Positions 16,495 to 54,955 of a stretch of 64,000 bases of DNA are shown in pieces (position 1 is the stretch's first letter; every line of letters begins with the position of its first letter). Source of the stretch: Pseudomonas sp. HR96 (GTDB lineage Bacteria; Pseudomonadota; Gammaproteobacteria; Pseudomonadales; Pseudomonadaceae); the NCBI RefSeq assembly GCF_034059295.1, contig NZ_CP139141.1:3455001-3519000 (forward strand), read 5' to 3'. Both the position numbers and the translations under genes were made by a program. The notes beneath the pieces are model-generated. The model was not told the origin of the DNA and ran no database searches. It saw nothing but the letters and a program-made list of their open reading frames with translations.

Positions 16495-17340
16495 ACACCG
16501 AGGTGATGCCCTCGCCAGCTGCGCCGGCTCCTACACCGACCCCGGAATGCCCCACAGTTGGCGTAGGAGCCGGCGAAGCTGGCGAGCGAACCAACACCCA
16601 ACCCCAGGCTTGATTGGCCATGAGCCGCAATACCAGCAGACGATCCACCCGCTAACCGAGGTGATGCCCTCGCCAGCTGCGCCGGCTCCTACACCGACCC
16701 CGAACACCCCACAGCTGGCGTAGGAGCCGGCGCAGCTGGCGAGCGAAGCAACACCCAACCCCAGGTTTGATTGGCCATGGGCCGCGATACCAGCAGACGA
16801 TCCACCCGCTAACCGAGGTGATCCCGTCGCCAGCTGCGCCGGCTCCTACAACGACCCCGAACGCCCCACCGGTGGCGTAGGAGCCGGCGAAGCTGGCGAG
16901 CGAAGCTACACCGAACCCCAGGTTTGATTGGCCATGAGCCGCGATACCAGCAGATGATCCACCCGCTAACCGAGGTGATGCCCTCGCCAGCTGCGCCGGC
17001 TCCTACACCGACCCCGAACACCCCACCGGTGGCGTAGGAGCCGGCGCAGCTGGCGAGCGAAGCAACACCGAACCCCAGGTTTGATTGGCCATGAGCCGCA
17101 ATACCAGCAGATGATCCAGCCGCTAACCGAGGTGATCCCGTCGCCAGCTGCGCCGGCTCCTACACCGACCCCGAACACCCCACCGGTGGCGTAGGAGCCG
17201 GCGCAGCTGGCGAGCGAACCAATACCGAACCCCAGGCTTGATTGCCCATGGACCGCGATACCAGCAGATGATCCACCCGGACACCGAGGTGCTGCCCTCG
17301 CCAGCTGCGCCGGCTCCTACGCCAGCTCGGAACGCCCCAC
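16495..17340. repeat. Tandem REPIN array 1 (about 157-bp units)
   Basis: Five complete copies and one half copy of a palindromic element follow the antiporter gene. Each has a REP (TCGCCAGCTGCGCCGGCTCC) and its inverted partner (GTAGGAGCCGGCGCAGCTGG) around a short variable centre, so each is a REPIN. Copies repeat every 157-158 bases because the roughly 70-base spacer (CCCCAGGTTTGATTGGCCAT through GATGATCCACCCGC) is also conserved. The last copy, near 17285-17340, has only the first REP. The same unit recurs at 41931-43141. The open frames through it (about 70 residues with WYRGSWPIKPG) are by-products of the repetition. Confidence 0.93.
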
Positions 17341-17648: not shown

Positions 17649-17861
17649 ATGGAAAGCGAATTTGGCGAAATGATGATTGCGTTCTCAAGCTTGCAGGACA
17701 GTGATGCGAGCATCGGCTTTAGCGGTGGGTCAGGCGGGTCCGGTGGTGGCGGCGCAAGTGGTGGGTCAGGCGGCGGTGGCAGTTATAAAGGTGGCTCCGG
17801 CGGTTGCGGCGGATGTGGGAGCGGTTGTGGCGGTAATGCCATAAGCTCAACGGACGACTAA
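17649..17861 (+). CDS. mcbA: Microcin B17-like LAP bacteriocin precursor peptide
   Basis: A 70-residue peptide with the two-part layout of a linear azol(in)e-containing precursor. The leader MESEFGEMMIAFSSLQDSDA shares the SEFG start and following hydrophobic stretch with the microcin B17 leader. Next comes a Gly/Ser core ending in SGGCGGCGSGCGGN, very close to the Cys-rich end of the microcin B17 core (GGCGGCSNGCSGGN as I remember it). Serines and three cysteines would be the oxazole/thiazole sites, but no adjacent Ser-Cys pair is present. A good AAGGA precedes the start. Downstream genes match mcbB (stump), mcbE and mcbF. The enzymes needed to modify it are absent here, so it may be unmodified or silent. 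Confidence 0.82.
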   Translation: MESEFGEMMIAFSSLQDSDASIGFSGGSGGSGGGGASGGSGGGGSYKGGSGGCGGCGSGCGGNAISSTDD

Positions 17862-17906
17862 TCCCCCATAGACCTATCCTATAAAAGGCAGGTTTGGAGA
17901 TAGGCC

Positions 17907-18236
17907 ATGCAAATCAAAATGCACAATTATGAAATCATGAACTTCGACTCTCAAGTTTTCGTAAATTCAACGAAAGGCATTTCAAATATCACGTCCGGGC
18001 CAATGGCAGCCTTCCTGTCCGAACTCAGGGGATGTGCGGGCCAAAACATTTCACCTGACCACATTGAAAACGAGCTGGCACGATATGGACTGGATATCGA
18101 ACCTCAATGCTTTTACGCCGCAAATCCAAAATGGTGCCGTTCCCATGACACATATGAAGTCGATCACAAAGCGGGCCACTCACAGAAAGGCACTTTTTAC
18201 TCGGCAGGTGTTAACACTTGCAATGATCTTCCTTAA
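17907..18236 (+). pseudogene. Truncated McbB-like gene: N-terminal RiPP recognition domain only
   Basis: An open frame of 109 residues with GGAG before the ATG. The first 65-70 residues (FDSQVFVNSTKGISNITSGP, AAFLSELRGCAGQNI, DHIENELARYGLD) look like the winged-helix peptide-binding domain at the start of McbB, the leader-binding partner of the cyclodehydratase, which is about 295 residues when complete. After about residue 70 the similarity ends. The frame then runs 92 bases into the permease gene in another phase, producing a meaningless tail. I read this as the 5' stump left by a deletion. Alternatively it is a genuine small stand-alone recognition protein with an odd tail. Confidence 0.65.
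18110..18148 (+). pseudogene. Possible last codons of a deleted YcaO (McbD-like) gene
   Basis: In a third frame the bases before the permease start read LLRRKSKMVPFP then TGA at 18146-18148, overlapping the permease ATG as ATGA. YcaO cyclodehydratases of azole pathways typically end in a proline-rich PxP motif, and mcbD precedes mcbE in microcin B17 loci. This is what a deletion running from inside mcbB to the end of mcbD would leave. The stretch is only about 12 codons, so the reading is inference. Confidence 0.4.
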
Positions 18237-18921
18237 GGAACAACTAAAGGAGCCTATCTCATTCTTCTGGACGCTCATCTCCCCCTGCGCATTATTCTAT
18301 TTTCTAGCGTATGCTCGATATGACGCCTCCTATTTTACCCAGACTTATATGGATGCTGCCTCATGGTTTTATGCATACACTTCAGCCAGTATCGCGCTAT
18401 TCGGAGTAGCGCTGTACTTCGTGGGCCGTCGTGAGGCTGGATTCGTCCGATCATTCATTTACACAACCCGAGCAATATACTTATACATAACGGCGCACCT
18501 CATCTGCCACTCAATTGTCTCACTTGCGTATTGCATTATTTTTTACCTGGCCACCCGTTTTGCTTTTCAAGATGCCAATCCAGCAGAACTCCCAACACTC
18601 ATCCTTCGCTTCTACCTGTGCTTTCTGCTTTTCTGTATTCCGGCGCTGCTTCTGGCCACTTGCCCACTCAGTTTCCGAAACGCCAACACATTATTTTCAA
18701 TGATACTGTTTTCAATGTTATTACTCTCGGCGATCGGTGCCTATCAGCCTCATTGGATTGTTGAGACCATCAACACCCTCAATCCATTTGTCATCGCGAG
18801 TCGTATCATGCGTGAAGGGGTCATCATGATCGAAGCCTTCTGCCTGCTGATTGGCTTTACCTTGGCGATTTATTGCAACGTGAAATACTTCCGGATAAAT
18901 CCAGTTTGGAGTCGATACTGA
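18145..18921 (+). CDS. mcbE: McbE-like ABC-2 type exporter permease
   Basis: A 258-residue integral membrane protein with six hydrophobic helices. It starts at an ATG (18145) that overlaps the TGA of the presumed mcbD remnant. The opening MIFLKEQLKEPISFFWTLISPCALFYFLAY and the later MILFSMLLLSAIGAYQPHW ... LNPFVIASRIMREGV fit ABC-2 permeases such as McbE, which with McbF exports microcin B17 and gives partial self-immunity. An upstream ATG at 18034 is rejected because it lies inside the mcbB stump. Its stop overlaps the next start as TGATG, so the two genes are coupled. The gene is intact and AT-rich relative to the flanking chromosome. Confidence 0.78.
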   Translation: MTHMKSITKRATHRKALFTRQVLTLAMIFLKEQLKEPISFFWTLISPCALFYFLAYARYDASYFTQTYMDAASWFYAYTSASIALFGVALYFVGRREAGFVRSFIYTTRAIYLYITAHLICHSIVSLAYCIIFYLATRFAFQDANPAELPTLILRFYLCFLLFCIPALLLATCPLSFRNANTLFSMILFSMLLLSAIGAYQPHWIVETINTLNPFVIASRIMREGVIMIEAFCLLIGFTLAIYCNVKYFRINPVWSRY

Positions 18922-19637
18922 TGGACAGTGTAGCAGCGCAAAGCCTATGGTTTGCCTACCCTGGCAGACAGATTCTCTCTGACGCGACATTGACTGTCCC
19001 CTCAGCTCAAGTCACCGGCTTGCTCGGGTCCAACGGTGCGGGCAAGACCACGTTTTTCGACCTGATATGTGGCATACGGACGGCTCAAGCAGGCCAACTT
19101 CAGATGAGCGGCCAGACCTGTCTCTATCTATCGCAGGTCATTACAGCCTCGCCTGTCCTGCAGATGGAGGACGCTTTCAGAATGATGGCGGCTCTGACCG
19201 CATACCGGAATGTGGATCTGGAAGAGGTGATCGAAAAACTGGCTTTGTGGTCATCGGAGTTGGTCGGCAGATACACTGCCCTTTGGCATAAAAAGTCAGC
19301 AGTGTGCAGCTACGGCGAGGTTCGGTGGTTTTTTTCCACATCGTTACTGGCGATTGGGGCGGATCTGATCCTGCTCGATGAACCCACCGCAGGAGTCGAT
19401 CCCGAGTGTAGACACTACACCTGGCAATGTATCAAAGCGGCAGCGAGAGAAGGCACAGCTGTATTGGTCTCCTCCCACAACGTGCAGGAAATCGTCGAAC
19501 ACACAGATGCTTTTCATATGCTCGCCAACCAGCGCTTCACCCGTTTCTCTTCGGGCGAGGAATATATGAATTACTACCGTTCACAGTCATTGGATGAAGC
19601 CTTTATCCAGGCCGGCAAACACGTCCTCGCGGGTTGA
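18921..19637 (+). CDS. mcbF: McbF-like ABC exporter ATP-binding protein
   Basis: A 238-residue ABC ATPase, close in size to McbF. Walker A is GSNGAGKTT, Walker B LILLDEPTAGVDPE, the switch histidine is in VSSHNVQEIV and the Q-loop is YLSQ. The signature is degenerate: CSYGEVRWF stands where LSGGQ-R is usual. That is seen in some exporter ATPases but could also mean slow or altered hydrolysis. It is translated by TGATG coupling with the permease. No mcbG-like pentapeptide immunity gene follows; the next gene, 48 bases on, is convergent and unrelated. Confidence 0.82.
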   Translation: MDSVAAQSLWFAYPGRQILSDATLTVPSAQVTGLLGSNGAGKTTFFDLICGIRTAQAGQLQMSGQTCLYLSQVITASPVLQMEDAFRMMAALTAYRNVDLEEVIEKLALWSSELVGRYTALWHKKSAVCSYGEVRWFFSTSLLAIGADLILLDEPTAGVDPECRHYTWQCIKAAAREGTAVLVSSHNVQEIVEHTDAFHMLANQRFTRFSSGEEYMNYYRSQSLDEAFIQAGKHVLAG

Positions 19638-53506: not shown

Positions 53507-54955
53507 ATGAACGCCCCCAGCAAACTTACCGTCGCCCTGCTATTGGGCCTGAGCGCCAACTACGCGTCAGCCGTGGATACCCGCATCGGACCAGTGACCT
53601 TGCAAGGTGACCTGCCAGACCGCGCCTCCATTGCCCAGTTGTACGCCGAGCTGGACTTTCAACAGGCCACCCAGGCCTACCTGTGGGCGTTGCCGCTGGT
53701 GTCCTATGCGCAGTGGCAGAAGGAATTTCGCGAAAAGCTCGGTGCGCGCAACGGGGACCTGATGGTGCTCACCAGCTACGAAGACAAGCTGGGGGTCATT
53801 ACCGCAAACGCCACCACGCCTTACATTCTCGGCTTCGTCGACCTGAACCAGACCGGCCCGCTGGTCATCGAGCTGCCCCCGGGGCCGACTGCTGGTGGGG
53901 TGGGCGACTTCTGGCAGCGAGCGATCGTCGACATGGGCCAGACCGGGCCGGACAAAGGCCAGGGCGGCAAATACCTGGTGCTGCCGCCGGGCACGCCGGC
54001 GCCAGCAGACACCCAGGGCTACTACCTGGCGCCGTCGCAAACCATGAACGTGCTGGTGGGTTTTCGCGTGCTCGACCCGGACCCGGCCAAGGGCCAGGCG
54101 TTGGTGCAGAAGTTTCGCATGTACCCACTCAAGGACCAGGCGCACCCCGCTGCCACTCGCCTGCTGACCCCAGGCGGCAAACGCTGGTCAGGTACCCAGC
54201 CCGGCGGCATGGCTTATTGGCAACTGTTGCATGAGATCATTCAGCGCGAACCGGTCAACGAGCGTGATCGCTTCTACATGGCCATGCTTGCCAGCCTCGG
54301 CATTGAAAAGGGCAAGCCGTTCGCCCCGACAGCCGAACAACGCCGGGCGCTGGAGCAGGGCCTGCAAATGGGCGAGTTGATCGCCAAGGCCAACACCTTC
54401 GCCAAGCGCTTCCCCCAGGCACGCTACTGGCCCGACCGGCAGTGGGACACCGTGCTCAATATCGAGGATCCGTCCCAGCGCGTCGCCCATTACGATCAGT
54501 TGTGGGAGCGCACGGCCTGGTTCTACGAAGCGGTGACCAACACCAAGGGCATGGTCTCGCACACCCCGGGGCTGGGCCAGACGTACCTGGGCGCCTACAC
54601 CGACGCCCAGGGCCAGTGGCTGGACGGCGCCAGCCGCTACACCTTGCACGTCGACGCACAGCCACCGGCGAAGCAGTTCTGGTCGCTGACGGTCTACGAC
54701 ATCGCCACCCGCTGCCTGATCGACAACCCGCAGCGCAAAGCCGACCTGTCCTCGCGCCAGGACCTGAAGAAGAACCCCGACGGTTCGGTAGACCTGTACT
54801 TCGGCCCGCAGCCGCCCAAGGACAAGGACAAGGAAGCGAATTGGGTGCAAACCGTGCCGGGCAAACAGTGGTTCAGCTATTTCCGCCTGTACGCGCCCAC
54901 TGAAGCCTATTTTGACAAGAGCTGGAAGTTGGCCGACTTCCAGCGCGAACCCTGA
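53507..54955 (+). CDS. DUF1254/DUF1214 exported protein, copy 1
   Basis: A 482-residue protein with a signal peptide (LTVALLLGLSANYASA). The N-terminal DUF1254 region includes FQQATQAYLWALPLVSYAQW and VITANATTPYILGFVDL. The C-terminal DUF1214 region includes WLDGASRYTLHVDAQPPAKQFWSLTVYDIATRCLIDN. The family is common but of unknown biochemical function. A second member follows at once (54971-56377), and the pair probably acts together in the periplasm. The start at 53507 is chosen for the signal peptide. Confidence 0.9.
   Translation: MNAPSKLTVALLLGLSANYASAVDTRIGPVTLQGDLPDRASIAQLYAELDFQQATQAYLWALPLVSYAQWQKEFREKLGARNGDLMVLTSYEDKLGVITANATTPYILGFVDLNQTGPLVIELPPGPTAGGVGDFWQRAIVDMGQTGPDKGQGGKYLVLPPGTPAPADTQGYYLAPSQTMNVLVGFRVLDPDPAKGQALVQKFRMYPLKDQAHPAATRLLTPGGKRWSGTQPGGMAYWQLLHEIIQREPVNERDRFYMAMLASLGIEKGKPFAPTAEQRRALEQGLQMGELIAKANTFAKRFPQARYWPDRQWDTVLNIEDPSQRVAHYDQLWERTAWFYEAVTNTKGMVSHTPGLGQTYLGAYTDAQGQWLDGASRYTLHVDAQPPAKQFWSLTVYDIATRCLIDNPQRKADLSSRQDLKKNPDGSVDLYFGPQPPKDKDKEANWVQTVPGKQWFSYFRLYAPTEAYFDKSWKLADFQREP

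Follow-up and report, generated by a model that had tools for sequence, protein, structure and literature searches.

An internally deleted microcin B17-like cluster in Pseudomonas sp. HR96 and the distribution of synthetase-less mcb loci in the genus

What is to be made of a bacteriocin locus that retains a toxin precursor and an exporter and lacks the enzymes that would mature the toxin? Such a locus lies in the 64-kb stretch of the Pseudomonas sp. HR96 genome analysed here (hereafter the window). The initial annotation recognized in it a pared-down relative of the microcin B17 cluster and asked whether it is decaying, persists for immunity alone or relies on enzymes encoded elsewhere. Its parts, together with the repeat array beside it, are as follows.

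16497..17320, no strand: tandem array of a 157-bp unit, 5.2 copies with 93% matches, with REP-like inverted arms
17649..17861, forward strand: mcbA-like precursor gene, full length (70 aa), with an SEFG-type leader, a Gly/Ser/Cys core and an NAI tail
17907..18236, forward strand: ORF of 109 aa containing the 5' end of mcbB, the B part covering about residues 1-69 (to about 18113)
18089..18148, forward strand: 3'-end remnant of mcbD (YcaO), reading TGYRTSMLLRRKSKMVPFP and a stop, of which the firm part is MVPFP-stop at 18131-18148
18145..18921, forward strand: mcbE-like ABC-2 permease gene, intact (258 aa)
18921..19637, forward strand: mcbF-like ABC ATPase gene, intact (238 aa)

There are zero internal stops in the precursor gene, the 109-residue ORF, mcbE and mcbF. 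Past its B-derived part the ORF runs out of frame across the mcbD tail and into mcbE; as the ATG of mcbE at 18145 overlaps the stop of the mcbD remnant, the ORF necessarily overlaps mcbE too. The 3' part of mcbB, the whole of mcbC and mcbD save its tail are lost from the window. The original statement that mcbC and mcbD are absent therefore holds entirely for mcbC, for which the locus gave no match, but has to be amended for mcbD. The 157-bp array is the directly upstream neighbour of the mcb remnant and stands outside the mcb system; its REP-type arms were seen by eye only.

The surviving parts and the deletion junction

The precursor leader reads MESEFGEMMIAFSS, and the core aligns without gaps with that of the L077 precursor, which comes from an intact cluster, at 33 identical positions out of 40, with Tyr-Lys in the window at the place of Cys-Ser in L077. 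Alignment with the precursors of intact Pseudomonas clusters recovers both the leader and the Gly/Ser/Cys core, which bears out the proposal of a 70-residue McbA-like precursor; a protein search with the peptide returned two short relatives. The postulated McbB-like stump is likewise genuine, matching positions 1-59 of the 286 in the McbB model TIGR04424 (E 8.6e-7, 28.9 bits), with a score under the 65-bit cut-off as expected of a fragment. An RRE fold has three strands and three helices; the stump gives an RRE match to 6gos, but in its predicted structure there is hardly any sign of the third helix, and pLDDT is below 50 for residues 70-109. As a putative RRE it would come close to the stand-alone RRE domains and proteins of RiPP systems (PbtF, TbiB1, lasso B1 and PqqD). 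Two viral contigs (L032, L033) match stump residues 36-57 (22 residues) at 52%, probably by chance.

The exporter genes are, as claimed at the outset, intact and in canonical order: in tblastn searches of a database of the 56 loci described below, enterobacterial McbE matched window E at 31.5% (E 8e-31) and enterobacterial McbF matched window F at 28.8% (E 6e-31). Window F preserves the Walker A (GSNGAGKTT), signature (CSYGE), Walker B (LILLDEP) and H-loop (SSH) motifs, in the form typical of this family. Over aligned columns window E and F are only 28-29% identical to E. coli McbE and McbF, so that the substrate of the pump is something we infer.

In complete Pseudomonas loci the mcbD stop lies near or overlaps the mcbE start, and mcbD ends in MVPFP-stop in 24 of the 25 complete loci and in the partial locus L058, with no such ending in L055. 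This pattern occurs at a single site in the six frames of the window, namely 18131-18148. The 20-column stretch ending there scores 32.1 bits against the 25 D tails, the next-best site in the six frames of the 64 kb reaching 4.3. The 13 columns before MVPFP-stop alone do not stand out; hence the extent of mcbD left beyond its last codons is uncertain, and the junction is placed somewhere at about 18095-18130. Read from the DNA, the 5' end of mcbB is joined to the 3' end of mcbD with the start of mcbE kept, which marks an internal deletion; comparison with the coordinates of L087 suggests that it removed about 2.6 kb. The deletion model put forward initially is sustained by this junction and by the 25 complete clusters in the genus sample.

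That the junction is an assembly error is unlikely, since the fused ORF and mcbE recur in public contigs. Over its 109 residues the fused product is 98% identical to an ORF from such a contig (P0114), and neither of the 2 differences falls within the 69 residues derived from B; window E is 97% identical to another public mcbE product (P0001; 6 differences in 232). The longest public contig measures 2572 bp in both cases, and P0001 and P0114 probably share one contig.

Complete and synthetase-less loci across Pseudomonas

An mcbE match was found in 56 of 398 Pseudomonas genomes, that of the window included. In the 55 other loci B-F were mapped with profiles built from the loci and A by a scan for Gly-rich ORFs. 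While 25 of the 56 loci comprise a complete A-F cluster, 31 have no intact synthetase (hereafter orphans; L058 among them keeps D), and the pared-down architecture is less exceptional than first supposed. Four loci counted as complete (L041, L063, L074, L075) have B or D interrupted in the assembly, with E and F open; the interruptions may mark the onset of such a loss or be errors of sequencing. McbB above the cut-off occurs in 26 of the 398 genomes, these being the 25 with complete clusters and G317, where the cluster reaches a contig end, and thus no whole McbB was found elsewhere in the 31 synthetase-less genomes. Because an mcbE match defines the set, G317 falls outside it, as does G022, which keeps just A and B fragments. 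In this last genome an A-like start and a B stump at about 53612-53779 (L146, G022:C17:50000-58000) are what is left of an almost fully lost locus, and the stump breaks off at about the point in McbB where that of the window does. In E. coli, E-F DNA covering at least 80% of the query was found in 110 of 5426 genomes and C-D DNA in 103 of 5426, so that orphan mcb loci look rarer there than in Pseudomonas; these records are not independent.

Two traits that had been singled out in the window turn out to be general. Two enterobacterial McbG queries gave no tblastn match in any of the 56 Pseudomonas loci (L048, L054, L068 and L070 being covered for less than 0.54 kb after F). McbG thus went undetected in the window, but as it is undetected in complete Pseudomonas clusters too, its absence from the window is usual and points to no special loss; we rejected such a loss as a feature peculiar to this locus. 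Pentapeptide counts did not discriminate, with a score of 6 for E. coli McbG itself against as much as 8 in some loci, and a distant McbG is possible. In its accessible text PMC8719888, through which complete Pseudomonas microcin B-like clusters are already known, describes Pseudomonas A-F clusters without McbG and says that P. syringae clusters have it. By eye, the ORFs after F in the six highest pentapeptide-scoring loci resemble an antisense NRPS-type gene. An antisense gene that looks NRPS-module-like by eye adjoins L046, L051, L052, L056, L058 and L061, complete and stripped loci alike, and the site beside it is one of a few recurring chromosomal mcb sites. The second trait, low GC content, is real but shared by 54 of the 54 mcb loci with enough flank; it thus marks the family, and is too unspecific to signal recent acquisition at the window site.

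A tree of E+F (58 rows, the 56 loci and two enterobacterial ones; quick method) cannot by itself distinguish gain from loss. On this tree full versus orphan status changes 20 times, at least 14 of the changes being forced by supported branches, and the two states show no more clustering than randomly permuted ones (331 of 500 shuffles needed as few changes); the window stands on a long branch of its own, without near relatives. Synthetase loss seems to recur across Pseudomonas. In 17 of the 31 orphans remnants survive, either pieces of A-D or DNA that once lay immediately upstream of A and now adjoins E; leaving out L090, which has weak matches, the number is 16. Parts of A are kept in L037, L057 and the window, and 5' ends of B in L043, L082 and the window. 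Parts of C or D, or D tails, persist in L037, L043, L058, L072, L078, L079, L082, L084 and the window. DNA from upstream of A is now near E in L037, L043, L050, L056, L064, L065, L066, L069, L082, L084 and L090. L082 (G296) keeps the upstream DNA, an mcbB stump and an mcbD tail and has no mcbA, so that A and B-C-D appear to have been lost in two separate deletions.

The initial annotation proposed that a related strain with an intact cluster at the corresponding site would support a deletion. For 20 of the 31 orphans such a counterpart exists, a complete locus in another species to which both flanks match (the downstream match of L076 being short, 362 bases), which means that the same chromosomal site occurs with and without the synthetase. 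The flanks of the window itself, by contrast, are matched on both sides by no other mcb locus. A remnant, a two-sided site match or both are found in 24 of the 31 orphans and neither in seven (L042, L047, L054, L059, L067, L073, L088), where gain of E-F alone is possible.

Among mcb loci the window alone has a CAP-protein gene beside mcb. The five genes that flank the locus in the window were sought in 29 short loci, in L077 and in 7 longer stretches, and in none of them was CAP accompanied by another of the five. Of 59 genomes, 55 contain the CAP-protein neighbour, and the Kef-type neighbour occurs in 142 of 199; L049 has a Kef match (65% over 327 residues). In G050 (C1:4674000-4703000; L077, L132) about 16 kb separate the complete mcb locus from a CAP orthologue, and in contig 22 of G037 Kef-type and CAP genes are about 17 kb apart, arrangements that possibly reflect distant synteny with the window. 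When 76 relatives were searched at the DNA level, the hits apart from the window itself were weak mcb ones in G021 and G002 and numerous short ones at the ABC motifs of the ATPase; exact-peptide patterns recovered no relative among the genome contigs.

Retention of mcbE-mcbF and competing explanations

Judged by profile coverage, both E and F have open reading frames in 28 of the 31 orphans and in all 25 full loci, a rule under which L055 counts as open though the N-terminus of its E is in two pieces; E or F is broken in three orphans (L043, L060, L069). For dN/dS we chose pairs by hand, 20 for E and 11 for F, leaving out of F the codons that overlap the end of E. Eight orphan pairs gave 0.11-0.33 for E (L073/L076 saturated) and 0.05-0.23 for F, among them L083/L089 (upstream DNA 97% over 1494 bases; E 0.20, F 0.13) and L065/L066 (upstream DNA 88% over 1505 bases; E 0.16, F 0.19). 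Three full-full pairs gave 0.12-0.14 for E and 0.06-0.09 for F; the higher orphan values could mean relaxed constraint, a comparison qualified by the greater divergence of most full-full pairs. With values well below 1, constraint on E-F persists in orphans and may be weaker there. Total decay happens too, as in the three broken loci and in G022.

Could the precursor be matured in trans by enzymes encoded elsewhere in the genome, a question raised by the initial annotation? Its sequence and leader are intact, but a search of the genome (5.87 Mb, 4 contigs, listed as 100% complete) for such enzymes recovered no more than the McbB stump and a protein of OsmC-YcaO-YcaO_C architecture. No McbB other than the stump, with its N-terminal 59 model positions, was found in this genome. 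One Pseudomonas McbC as query gave no dehydrogenase, an empty answer that alone proves little. The McbD cyclodehydratase is represented by its C-terminal remnant alone, and no dedicated YcaO was found, the sole YcaO recovered from the genome being the OsmC-YcaO-YcaO_C protein, which we take to be of housekeeping type. Maturation in trans is accordingly extremely improbable, and as the synthetase was not found it is strongly indicated that the cell is unable to make an azole peptide. A working module without heterocycles would dispense with these enzymes: the precursor, the stump as a free RRE domain that still binds the leader, and the E-F exporter might, for example, export unmodified peptide, or a peptide/RRE pair might regulate or stabilise the immunity pump. 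The full-length precursor, the putative B-derived RRE fold with its match to 6gos and the open E and F agree with such a module, as does the identity of all 69 B-derived residues in P0114 beside the 6 changes of E in P0001, counts too small for significance. We nevertheless give it very little credence, for the third helix and residues 70-109 are poorly predicted, the stump ORF and E share DNA in different frames, the other stumps (L043, L082, G022) do not occur in the same combination, and E. coli McbEF is described in the accessible text of PMC10912980 as an exporter of the modified peptide.

The locus might also be a simple relic, decaying neutrally as a whole, with E and F open just through the recency of the deletion. 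The three orphans with broken E or F, the near-complete loss in G022, the Tyr-Lys for Cys-Ser exchange in the core and the isolation of the window, which has no close relative for dating, speak for such decay. We consider it unlikely, as E and F stay open in 28 orphans across many separate losses, orphan pairs show dN/dS well below 1, and the fused ORF and E are 98% and 97% identical in another lineage. The explanation that we favour, and hold to be probable, is an internal deletion in a chromosomal A-F cluster after which E-F were kept as an immunity pump, leaving an immune non-producer. As the sequence shows, a chromosomal microcin B17-like LAP cluster in the order A-B-C-D-E-F lost an internal segment, estimated at about 2.6 kb, the deletion taking the 3' part of mcbB, mcbC and nearly all of mcbD and sparing the D-E overlap. 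McbE-McbF would then protect the cell by efflux of microcin B-like gyrase poisons that other pseudomonads make; this protective role is the most likely one in view of the conservation of E and F and of what is reported for E. coli McbEF. The precursor and the RRE stump would most likely be passengers that erosion has so far spared. The window is unusual among orphans in keeping a full-length precursor together with the RRE part of McbB, and in this respect looks like an intermediate stage of loss.

Relation to known systems and implications

The window shares with the enterobacterial-plasmid mcbABCDEFG and with the Pseudomonas clusters its precursor design, McbB N-terminus, McbD C-terminus, McbE, McbF and gene order; it differs from the microcin B17 cluster in its deleted synthetase, its undetected McbG and its chromosomal location. 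As far as their accessible text goes, PMC10912980 and PMC10926693 both support a role of McbEF in the export of microcin B17 and in immunity in E. coli, and the latter reports two MccB17-resistant E. coli isolates in which mcbG and an mcbF orthologue occur without the rest of the cluster. With its export/immunity genes intact and its toxin-production genes missing, the window resembles the orphan bacteriocin immunity genes of E. coli, which occur without toxin-making genes and which the accessible portion of PMC12546727 records on 243 plasmids. The Pseudomonas loci differ in being chromosomal and in that scars and intact relatives at the same site show loss in place, and the window further differs in keeping a precursor and an RRE stump. 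At the level of titles and abstract openings, where subscription literature is thinly covered, we found no description of recurrent synthetase loss in Pseudomonas mcb loci.

The window is therefore no new system, but a well-resolved deletion derivative and a clear case of a recurrent pattern. In Pseudomonas microcin B-like loci the history of loss is readable from the DNA in 24 of the 31 orphans, and the E+F tree implies many separate events while E-F stay constrained. This pattern bears on whether orphan immunity arises by toxin loss or by immunity gain, a question called unsettled in the accessible text of PMC12546727, whose own data on E. coli plasmids speak for immunity being acquired and maintained rather than for simple loss of the toxin. 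With producer, immune non-producer and empty genomes in a single genus, Pseudomonas would offer a ready system for testing rock-paper-scissors dynamics.
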